Part shown: positions 29,802 to 32,485 of the stretch, one piece after another | Layout: the number at the start of each line of letters is the position of its first letter | Position numbering within the stretch: position 1 is the first letter of the stretch | Source of the DNA: Actinomycetota bacterium | GTDB taxonomy: Bacteria; Actinomycetota; Actinomycetes; Actinomycetales; Dermatophilaceae | Direction of reading: 5' to 3' | Assembly: GCA_020161845.1 (NCBI GenBank) | Contig: JAIUNK010000008.1 | Location: 62,001 to 126,000, forward strand | Length of the DNA: 64,000 bases | The notes under the pieces: generated by a model | Told to the model about the DNA's origin: nothing | Databases searched by the model: none | What the model saw: only the letters and a program-made list of their open reading frames with translations | Position numbers and translations under genes: made by a program

Positions 29802-30379
29802 ATGTGTTTGAGTGGCCGAGTGGACGCCTCCCGATCGCAGCCGCTCATTCGACTCGCCCACCACGGCGACCTCGGCGATCTGTCGGCCGTCGAGGCCTCC
29901 GCCGATGCGCAGTTCCGGTCGGTGGGCATGGCCATGGTGGCCGATGCCGAGCCGCCGGGCCCGGCGGTCCACGCCCCGGCCGCCGCGGCGGGTCGCCTGT
30001 GGGTCGCCGAGGTGACCGATGACGCCGGGGTGACCGATGACGGGGTCGCCGAGGTCGTGGGTTTCATCCGGGTCGAGATCGTCGACGGCGTGCCGCACGT
30101 CGAGCAGCTCAGCGTCATCCCTCGTCACCAGCGACACGGCATCGGGTCAGCGCTCCTCGCCGCGGCAACGATCTGGGCGCGCGCTGCTGGCTTTGCGCGA
30201 ATGACGCTGCGGACGTTCCGGGACGTCCCCTTCAACGGCCCTTTCTACGCGCGCCGCGGCTGGCGGGCCATCTCCGGGCCGATGCGGACACCGGCCCGGA
30301 GATGGCCGCCTTGCGTAGCACCGAAGAGCGGCTCGGCCTGCTCGTCTGGCCCCGCCAGACGATGGTCAAGGCCGTGTGA
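29802..30379 (+). CDS. GNAT family N-acetyltransferase with apparent -1 frameshift near the C-terminus
   Basis: A GNAT acetyltransferase of about 190 residues. The first frame gives LIRLAHHGDLGDLSAVEASAD, VVGFIRVEIVDGVPHVEQLSVIPRHQRHGIGSALLAAA with the acetyl-CoA loop, then MTLRTFRDVPFNGPFYARRGWR. There the protein should continue, but this frame turns into Arg/Pro/Ser-rich sequence to a stop at 30438. In the -1 frame, from about 30266, the codons read PEMAALRSTEERLGLLVWPR to a TGA at 30377, exactly the usual GNAT ending. A one-base insertion in the GGG at 30265-30267 would explain it. Either a natural mutation or a sequence error. Start could also be GTG 29820. Confidence 0.7.
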
Positions 30380-30404
30380 CCAGCCAGGCGTCACCAGAGG
30401 CGGT

Positions 30405-30418
30405 CCCGACGCGTCGGG
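30405..30418. terminator. palindrome CCCGACGCGTCGGG after the GNAT gene
   Basis: A perfect 14-base palindrome 26 bases after the restored GNAT stop. It could form a short hairpin in either transcript but has no T-run. Confidence 0.3.
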
Positions 30419-30460
30419 GACGGGGGTGCTGAGCGGATGACGCGACACTCGGCCGGCGTG

Positions 30461-30545
30461 CCCAAACCGATATCGCAATGGCTCGAGCGTGGACCGCGAC
30501 CAGGCCTTTTGCCGGCAGGGGACGCCAATGCGATATCGGTTTGGG
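30461..30545. repeat. 85-base element with 22-base terminal inverted repeats
   Basis: Arms at 30461-30482 (beginning CCCAAACCGATATCGCAATG) and 30524-30545 are complementary at 21 of 22 positions, with a 41-base centre. Each arm contains the palindrome CGATATCG. The AT-richer arms stand out from the surroundings. It resembles a miniature inverted-repeat element or a strong hairpin terminator after the GNAT gene. No flanking target duplication was recognised. Confidence 0.7.
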
Positions 30546-30609
30546 TCGGCCCGCCGAACCTGGGAGGAGGCCGACGAGCCGTCGGCGCCATGAGCGACCG
30601 CCATGTCCG

Positions 30610-30834
30610 ACTGACGCCCCGTCACCTCGACTGGCGCCCCGGTACCCCGACTGACGCCCCGTCACCTCGACTGGCGCCTGTTCGTCCCACTGGCGCCCTG
30701 TTCGTCCCACTGGCGCCCCGCTTGAAGAAGGGCGCCAGTGGGGGAAAGAGGGCGGCAGTGCGAGAAGGAGGGCGGCAGTGCGGAAATGGGGCATCAGCTG
30801 GGCAGGACGTCAGTGCGGGAAAGGGGGCGCCAGT
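30610..30834. repeat. mirrored array of 20-base repeats with core ACTGGCGCCC/GGGCGCCAGT
   Basis: Six cores reading ACTGRCGCC(C/T) start at 30610, 30630, 30650, 30670, 30689 and 30709; six in the opposite orientation, GGGCGNCAGT or a degenerate form, start at 30730, 30750, 30770, 30789, 30805 and 30825. The usual period is 20. The 10 bases between cores vary (GTCACCTCG and TGTTCGTCC recur on the left). The innermost pair makes a perfect 13-bp stem (30706-30718 with 30730-30742) around an 11-base loop. The array lies between the convergent GNAT and menF genes. It has no coding sense since the period is not a multiple of three. Confidence 0.8.
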
Positions 30835-30855
30835 GCGGGGATAGATGCCGCGGCG

Positions 30856-32286
30856 TCAGGGTGCCAGCGGGCCCGCGGCCAGGGCGGAGCGCATCGGCAC
30901 CAGTTTGGCGGCCGATTCGGCCAGTTCGGACGCCGGGTCCGAGCCCGCCACGATCCCGCACCCAGCGAACAGCCGAACCCGGCGCGGATCGGTGGCGTCC
31001 AGCTCGCCGCACCGCAGCGCGATGCCCCACTCCCCGTCGCCAGCCGCGTCGACCCAGCCCACCGGCCCGGCATAGCGGCGCCGGTCCATCCCCTCCAGCT
31101 CATCGATCAACGCCGAAGCCCGATCGCGGGGCGTGCCGCACACCGCCGCCGACGGGTGCAGCGCTGCCGCCAGCGAGATCGAGGTGGCTCCGTTGGTCAG
31201 TCGGCCGGTCACGTCGGTGGCCAGGTGCATCACGTTCGGCAGGTGCAGCACGAACGGCGACTCGGGGGTGTTCATCGAGGTGCAATGCGGGGCCAAGGCA
31301 TCGGCGACGGAGCGTACCGCGTACTCGTGTTCCTCCAGGTCCTTGCTGCTGCGCGCCAGCGAGGCGGCCAGCGCCAGATCGCGCTCGTCGTCCCCGCTGC
31401 GTCGGATCGTGCCGGCCAGCACCCGGGACGTGACCAGCCCGCGCTCCAAGCGGCACAGCATCTCCGGCGTCGCGCCGACCAGCCCATCGACAGCGAAGAC
31501 CCAGGTGCTCTCGTACTCCGCCGCCAGCCGCCGCAGCAGCCAGCGCGGCTCGACGGGCGCGGCGGCCTCCGCATACAGGTCGCGGGCCAGGACCACCTTG
31601 TCGAGTTCGCCGGCGCCGATCCGCGCCACCGCGGTCGCCACCGCGGACTGCCACGCCGGCCCGGACCGGGCTCCGTCCGAGAACGCCACCTCGCCCGGCG
31701 CCTGCGGCAGCGGGAGCTCCGGCTCCGACCCCGTAGCGGGCTCGCCCGTCGAAATGGGGGCGGTCGCCCAGTACGCCGCGTGGGCCGCGTCGAGTTCCGC
31801 GGGATCGCCCGGCTCGGCCAGCGTGCCCAGGTCGACCACGGTCGTCACGCTGGCCGTGGCGCCGCAGCGTCGCACCGTGATCGCCGGCACCCGCAACACA
31901 CCCCCAGCGGGGGAGTGCGCGGCGAACGCGAACGACCCGAACGCCACCAGGCCGTCCACGCCCTCGAGCGCGCCGGCCACGGCCACGACCTGCCGCCACC
32001 AGGACTCGGCCTGGGCAAATCGTTGCGGCCCGGCCGTGTGGACCTGCGCCGCGCAGCCCCAGCCGACCCGGCCCTCGCCGCGCCGCACCCAGGCGGCCAG
32101 CACGTCGCGGGAGGTTTCGGCGGGCAATACCGACAGCAGCTCCGGTACCTCGGCAAGCGGGCGCGTGCGCACCGACAACTCCGGGACCACCGCGGCGGAC
32201 CCGGCGTCGGGCGCGGGGAGGGCGTCGGGGGCGGCAAGGAACCCGCTGGTGGCGGGCGTCGACGGGGCGGATGCGGCAGCGTGCAT
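30856..32286 (-). CDS. menF: isochorismate synthase (MenF/EntC family)
   Basis: A 476-residue chorismate-binding enzyme that converts chorismate to isochorismate, the substrate of MenD. The conserved C-terminal half carries ELDKVVLARDL, AVDGLVGATPEMLCRLERG, VLAGTIRRSGD, SSKDLEEHEYAVRSV, HLATDVTGRL, LHPSAAVCGTPRD and GPVGWVDAAGDGEWGIALRC followed by RLFAGCGIVAGSDP. The N-terminal half is variable as usual. It is divergent from menG with about 200 bases between, and its 3' end runs towards the mirrored repeat array. Specificity for isochorismate rather than salicylate is inferred from the men neighbours. Confidence 0.9.
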   Translation of the reverse strand: MHAAASAPSTPATSGFLAAPDALPAPDAGSAAVVPELSVRTRPLAEVPELLSVLPAETSRDVLAAWVRRGEGRVGWGCAAQVHTAGPQRFAQAESWWRQVVAVAGALEGVDGLVAFGSFAFAAHSPAGGVLRVPAITVRRCGATASVTTVVDLGTLAEPGDPAELDAAHAAYWATAPISTGEPATGSEPELPLPQAPGEVAFSDGARSGPAWQSAVATAVARIGAGELDKVVLARDLYAEAAAPVEPRWLLRRLAAEYESTWVFAVDGLVGATPEMLCRLERGLVTSRVLAGTIRRSGDDERDLALAASLARSSKDLEEHEYAVRSVADALAPHCTSMNTPESPFVLHLPNVMHLATDVTGRLTNGATSISLAAALHPSAAVCGTPRDRASALIDELEGMDRRRYAGPVGWVDAAGDGEWGIALRCGELDATDPRRVRLFAGCGIVAGSDPASELAESAAKLVPMRSALAAGPLAP

Positions 32287-32364: not shown

Positions 32365-32485
32365 CGACGCGACCGGGCCGGGACCGCCCCGACGCCAGCC
32401 CTACGCCACCCCGAGACCGCCCTGAGACCGCCCCGACGCCACCCCAAGACCACCCCGACACGACCCCACCAGCGCGTCTGCAAGG

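Follow-up and report, generated by a model that had tools for sequence, protein, structure and literature searches.

Mirrored arrays of 20-bp units at ten intergenic loci of one high-GC bacterial genome as candidate docking sites for a DNA-binding protein

The 64,000-nucleotide stretch of DNA analysed in this study (the window) carries, in the gap between two convergent genes, an array of six direct and six inverted half-sites facing each other across a short centre, and arrays with the same layout recur elsewhere in the genome. Comparison of their sequences leads us to favour, tentatively and with rather less than full conviction, the reading that the window array, which belongs to a set of ten intergenic elements scattered through this genome and specific to its lineage, is a docking site for a putative sequence-specific, oligomerising DNA-binding protein. 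Of the three options offered by the initial annotation, a protein-binding array, a bidirectional terminator and a recombination product, the protein-binding array fits the results best.

The left arm of the window array (30610-30718, + strand) consists of six direct half-sites ACTGVCGCCC starting at 30610, 30630, 30650, 30670, 30689 and 30709. It is followed by an 11-nt centre (30719-30729) of the form NNN-WTSAW-NNN with its dyad at 30724, and by a right arm (30730-30834, - strand) of six inverted half-sites starting at 30730, 30750, 30770, 30789, 30805 and 30825. The layout of six half-sites facing six across a centre near 30724 was described before and is confirmed here, with 30724 itself as the dyad base, and the near-strict 20-base spacing reported with it agrees with our measurements (20, 20, 20, 19 and 20 bp on the left, 21 bp across the centre, and 20, 20, 19, 16 and 20 bp on the right). 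Nine of the twelve half-sites match ACTGVCGCCC exactly, five on the left and four on the right, while those at 30670 and 30805 carry one mismatch each and that at 30789 carries two. Comparison of centres delimits a 71-bp module of two plus two half-sites with 20-21-20 spacing (30689-30759). The signal of the array lies in this periodic, facing arrangement and not in the core by itself. The longest same-strand run of half-sites, counted with at most one mismatch and a spacing of 17-23 bp, is six in the window versus no more than two in 60 first-order Markov shuffles, whereas the core alone shows no excess either in the window (127 occurrences with at most two mismatches versus 198 in shuffles) or genome-wide (122 + 137 with at most one mismatch versus 214 + 220 in the reversed control).

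The exact centre pattern matches 12 times in the genome that contains the window (4,392,256 bp, 4.39 Mb, in 82 contigs) and never in the reversed control, and the looser pattern CGCCCNNNWTSAWNNNGGGCG likewise gives 12 matches and none in its control. The search for further arrays that had been proposed therefore reveals recurrence within the genome, with the 12 centres falling at ten loci: two at C13 (C13a and C13b), one at C38 with three centres, and one each at C14, C15, C42, C54, C55 (the window array), C63 and C64. The modules at C38, three local duplicates that hardly differ, are not independent. The centre is 11 nt long at all 12 centres, as found by the pattern, and at 11 of them four intact half-sites make up the 71-bp module, with two direct ones spaced 20 bp, a step of 21 bp across the centre and two inverted ones again spaced 20 bp; the exception is C38b, where the outer left site is degenerate. 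Outward copies beyond this module vary in number among arrays. In total the ten arrays hold 63 perfect half-sites, and lone perfect half-sites outside them are not in excess (11 in about 0.8 Mb, against a rough composition estimate of about 20). The initial annotation had named assembly collapse as a possible source of the structure; this is unlikely, as the layout is present at ten loci whose spacers differ.

Comparison of the 12 centres supports the earlier suggestion that the core is under selection, since the cores are near-invariant while the spacers have diverged. The sequence ACTGVCGCCC is matched at all 24 innermost half-sites and at 23 of the 24 second ones (47 of 48 together), and at 5 of 13 third, 3 of 8 fourth, 2 of 4 fifth and 2 of 2 sixth half-sites, in an outer tally that stops, in each arm, once a site within 17-23 bp exceeds three mismatches, misses sites past longer gaps (such as C15 left) and may include some chance sites with three mismatches. 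At core position 5 the 24 inner half-sites carry G in 15, C in 8 and A in 1, and the remaining nine positions are invariant. The spacers have T at -8 in 19 of 24 and at -7 in 22 of 24, their other positions being variable. Conservation is compared only among copies of one genome because the relatives lack the element, and copies that were made or spread recently could give a false impression of constraint. Within the same arm, adjacent spacers share on average 6.6 of 10 positions on the left and 5.0 on the right, whereas spacers of different arrays share 5.1 and 4.6. Three arms, the left ones of C14 and C55 and the right one of C63, have identical adjacent spacers. The identity of neighbouring units in some arms indicates growth by tandem duplication.

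The two arms of an array show little sign of having evolved as partners. Over the 12 centres, the left and right spacers of the same array pair at 6.0 of 10 positions versus 6.39 across arrays, and permutation of the arms over ten centres (C38b and C38c dropped) gives p 0.89 for spacers and p 0.21 for cores, the latter value leaving room for what may be weak pairing. RNAalifold predicts 19 pairs with a covariation term of +0.26. The innermost position-5 pair is unchanged at six of the 12 centres, broken at four, and changed on both sides with pairing kept at two, the last being a point in favour of pairing. Since spacers of one array show no pairing advantage over spacers from different arrays, and since position 5, the one variable core position, forms no pair at four of the 12 centres, we favour recognition of the sequence over base pairing. 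The very large hairpin proposed in the initial annotation is thermodynamically possible, since the window array folds as RNA at -147.8 kcal/mol (z -7.06) and as DNA with z -6.63, but the arms do not coevolve as that structure would lead one to expect. Neither a gathering-score Rfam match at any array nor covarying stems, the mark of a conserved structured RNA, in the 12 centres were found.

Four features taken together, namely invariant base identity (at A-T pairs too), constraint that falls outward, fixed spacing and arms that do not coevolve, favour a protein that would recognise double-stranded DNA and nucleate at the dyad. The inner half-sites near the dyad are almost invariant, and the outer units decay and differ in number. 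We suggest that a dimer or a pair of dimers would read the central dyad and that further subunits would add outward, one per 20 bp, a step of about 1.9 helical turns that would place them nearly on one face of the DNA. Each half-site contact would comprise ACTGVCGCCC and the TT that lies a few bases nearer to the centre. Such a putative complex might act in local chromosome organisation, in gene insulation or in the service of a mobile element's own protein. If the arrays do seat a protein, they offer a ready bait, with a 71-bp module, ten loci and natural variants at position 5 and in the outer units, and such a bait would target a putative DNA-binding protein of a high-GC bacterium, perhaps one that spreads along the DNA.

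The genes around the arrays have been compared as well. By gene content and composition, the organism is probably a high-GC actinobacterium. By Pfam, the window array is flanked by a GNAT acetyltransferase gene (29898-30440, + strand, where 29898 is the start of the scanned piece and not of the gene) and a chorismate-binding, MenF-like gene (30856-32286, - strand), both pointing toward the array. The Pfam-matching GNAT frame is open to 30440, and a C-terminus like that of the congener G002 lies in another frame and ends at 30379 (region 30250-30440); a frameshift or a sequence error is possible. Two further repeats lie close by: inverted repeats of the CCCAAACCGATATCGCA type about 85 bp apart (30460-30546), MITE-like, which recur as paired copies at some nine further places in the genome, several of them weak matches, and a tandem repeat of about 11 bp (CCCCGACGCCA) at 32371-32468, between the MenF-like gene and the gene beyond it. 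With a purpose-made ORF caller based on codon usage, the arrays are intergenic at all ten loci; at C13b a weak ORF that matches no Pfam family extends into the array. Among the nine loci that can be oriented (C13a is unassigned), three lie between convergent genes (C13b, C42 and C55), four between tandem genes (C14, C54, C63 and C64) and two between divergent genes (C15 and C38), the last two provisionally because their left-hand ORFs have no Pfam match. Pfam domains in 20 proteins near the arrays include an ABC ATPase, PNPase, L17, a pseudouridine synthase, PPDK, a HypB-like protein, a P450 and others; the flanking genes have no common theme, and the arrays therefore do not mark an ordinary regulon. 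An msiK RNA (RF01747) lies at L023:2572-2631, upstream of the ABC ATPase gene that adjoins the C14 array.

From sequence searches the arrays appear to be lineage-specific, with about ten in one genome and almost none found in relatives. The exact centre is absent from all 185 other genomes of the family, and the looser pattern occurs once or twice in 36 of 395 other genomes of the order, versus 12 times here. A pattern requiring three correctly spaced half-sites matches one of the 185 family genomes, the congener G001, and two others gave one control match each. The G001 candidate has RCTGGRGGCC half-sites in the 20-21-20 layout, lies 3' of a gene, and has perfectly complementary arms, spacers included (34 pairs, with 68 of 71 positions self-complementary). 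Its geometry score of four mismatches is weak, as shuffling this sequence yielded a match with five. It is only suggestive of a diverged relative. A looser tandem pattern matched three of 57 other genomes (G027, G037 and G048); the G027 matches were rejected as arrays, being largely a 9-bp repeat, and so was that of G037, an 18-bp repeat judged probably coding. In the contig databases, from which the own or a very near genome may have been excluded, the centre pattern matched six stretches of genome_contigs, none with arms by eye, and none of viral_contigs. A BLAST search with the window array (E up to 10) gave no more than 19% query cover among the best 20 of 31 plasmid records and the best 20 of 37 phage records, with a lowest E of 0.2 over both. 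Among the matches listed from the open-access literature, we recognised no described element with this layout or half-site.

It is quite possible, although doubtful as the main account, that the arrays are interspersed palindromic repeats like REP, BIME or MITE elements, either selfish or inert, in which a hairpin-centred sequence was copied to intergenic sites without host function, with arms lengthened by slippage and core identity owed to the copying machinery or to recent spread. Being dispersed, intergenic and lineage-specific, the elements fit this picture, and the mixed orientation of the neighbouring genes is like that reported for REPs in PMC3733652. Conservation of position between the same genes, which had been put forward as a check, is not borne out: in G002 a gap of 9 bp, with no array, separates GNAT from menF, versus 476 bp in the window (30380-30855), or 415 bp with the frame open to 30440. 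At the C14 locus, too, G001 lacks the array, and both absences are what a spreading repeat would leave. The MITE-like inverted-repeat family about 60 bp to the left of the window array and at some nine other places indicates that this genome accumulates such elements. Because this family adjoins the array and the element is lineage-specific, the selfish repeat ranks close behind protein docking. However, the spacers have diverged between arrays while the cores have not, which is unlike recent copies; no outer end or tag is conserved; the single unit is not palindromic; and no transposase domain is found in the 20 neighbour proteins, four of which match nothing in Pfam. If the arrays are selfish, they would represent a repeat class with a conserved centre and arms growing outward, which searches for REP or MITE ends could miss.

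An RNA-level element, in which long nested hairpins terminate transcription bidirectionally or shield the 3' ends of mRNAs, appears distinctly unlikely. The stable RNA fold of the window array is consistent with it, and at least one gene ends toward the array at seven of the nine orientable loci. The perfect arm pairing of the possible G001 relative, a 34-bp hairpin 3' of a gene, counts toward a hairpin reading. Nevertheless, the bidirectional terminator of the initial annotation finds little support, since two of the nine orientable arrays lie apparently between divergent genes (with left-hand ORFs that have no Pfam match), three adjoin separate strong hairpins, seen by eye at C14, C54 and C64, and covariation is lacking. 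The C14 gap in G001 contains a hairpin and no array. No terminator-like site was found in 30250-31050 in a search admitting loops of 3-8 nt, and thus not the 11-nt loop of the array, and by eye no T-run follows either window arm. A partition-like or transposon-end-like site built of ~20-bp iterons, such as ParR/parC or TnsB-type ends, would have a similar unit length, but it is very improbable in view of ten loci, mirrored arms, a fixed inner and variable outer boundary, no par or transposase domain in the 20 neighbour proteins and no convincing plasmid or phage match among the matches listed.

A scan independent of the core reveals a second family with the same kind of layout. A first scan for mirrored arrays was too loose (88 matches in 0.40 Mb of the own genome versus 24 in 0.20 Mb shuffled). 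A periodic version, run on about 0.94 Mb of the own genome, 0.4 Mb from each of the congeners G001 and G003 and as much from one other genus, gave 31 matches in the 0.94 Mb (small overlaps included) and none in 0.80 Mb shuffled. Its background per 0.40 Mb was 1 in G003, 2 in G001 and 4 in G137, so that real sequence exceeds shuffles. Thirteen of the 31 matches belong to the ACTGVCGCCC arrays (family A) or to the second family (family B); seven of the other 18 were inspected and none is a 20-bp mirrored array. One of these seven is a 21-bp direct repeat of 4.5 copies, GACGACTCTGTCGCGATAGCC, at L225:11134-11227 (C49). Family B has 19-20-bp units with the core CGAGGGCCAG, mirrored about a 10-nt centre, at two C28 loci, L193:11505-11691 and L194:1950-2405 (at about 51.5 and 62 kb), the second with two modules; lying 10 kb apart, the two may share common descent. 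CTGGC is common to both cores and in family B adjoins the centre. BLAST found no further strong copy in the own genome, and against plasmids it gave six records with a lowest E of 0.1. The exact family B centre occurs once each in five of the 185 other genomes of the family; as the reversed control also matches several, this does not exceed chance. That one layout appears with two different cores is the most striking point. It raises the broader and rather unlikely idea that mirrored, dyad-nucleated arrays of non-palindromic units of about 20 bp are a new type of nucleoprotein site on the chromosome, with a polarity that flips at the centre, subunits that would spread outward and a spacing that persists while the core can change (ACTGVCGCCC in A, CGAGGGCCAG in B and possibly RCTGGRGGCC in the congener).

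ParR-binding parC centromeres and replication iterons are short direct repeats that seat one protein per repeat. The present arrays differ in being inverted about a dyad, in occurring at ten loci and in having no par or rep gene seen alongside; in particular, no adjacent parM or parR was found in the 20 nearby proteins, four of them without a Pfam match. Hairpin-cluster terminators, as described in PMC8355165, are similar as strong hairpins between genes; the arrays depart from them in lying apparently also between divergent genes, with separate hairpins at three loci and no covariation. The hairpin with a T-tract at a gene 3' end that marks an intrinsic terminator was likewise not found, the T-tract being judged at the window locus. 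REPINs and MITEs (PMC3116915) are alike as inverted repeats spread in one genome, and the arrays contrast with them in conserving the centre rather than the ends and in extending outward as direct repeats. The arrays also share features with REP and BIME elements (PMC3733652, PMC2817692), which are short intergenic palindromes repeated within one genome and sometimes clustered; in intergenic position all ten arrays agree with them. REP and BIME copies usually number more than 100 per genome, against 12 centres and 63 perfect half-sites here, and the tag GTAG/CGTC at their stem base is absent from the arrays, where beyond ACTG/CAGT no bases are conserved over the 12 centres. The array unit, unlike these palindromes, is not self-complementary when position 5 is C. 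Whereas each REP or BIME unit is a hairpin and orientations alternate, the units described here run direct within an arm, with one inversion per module and a fixed 20-21-20 geometry.
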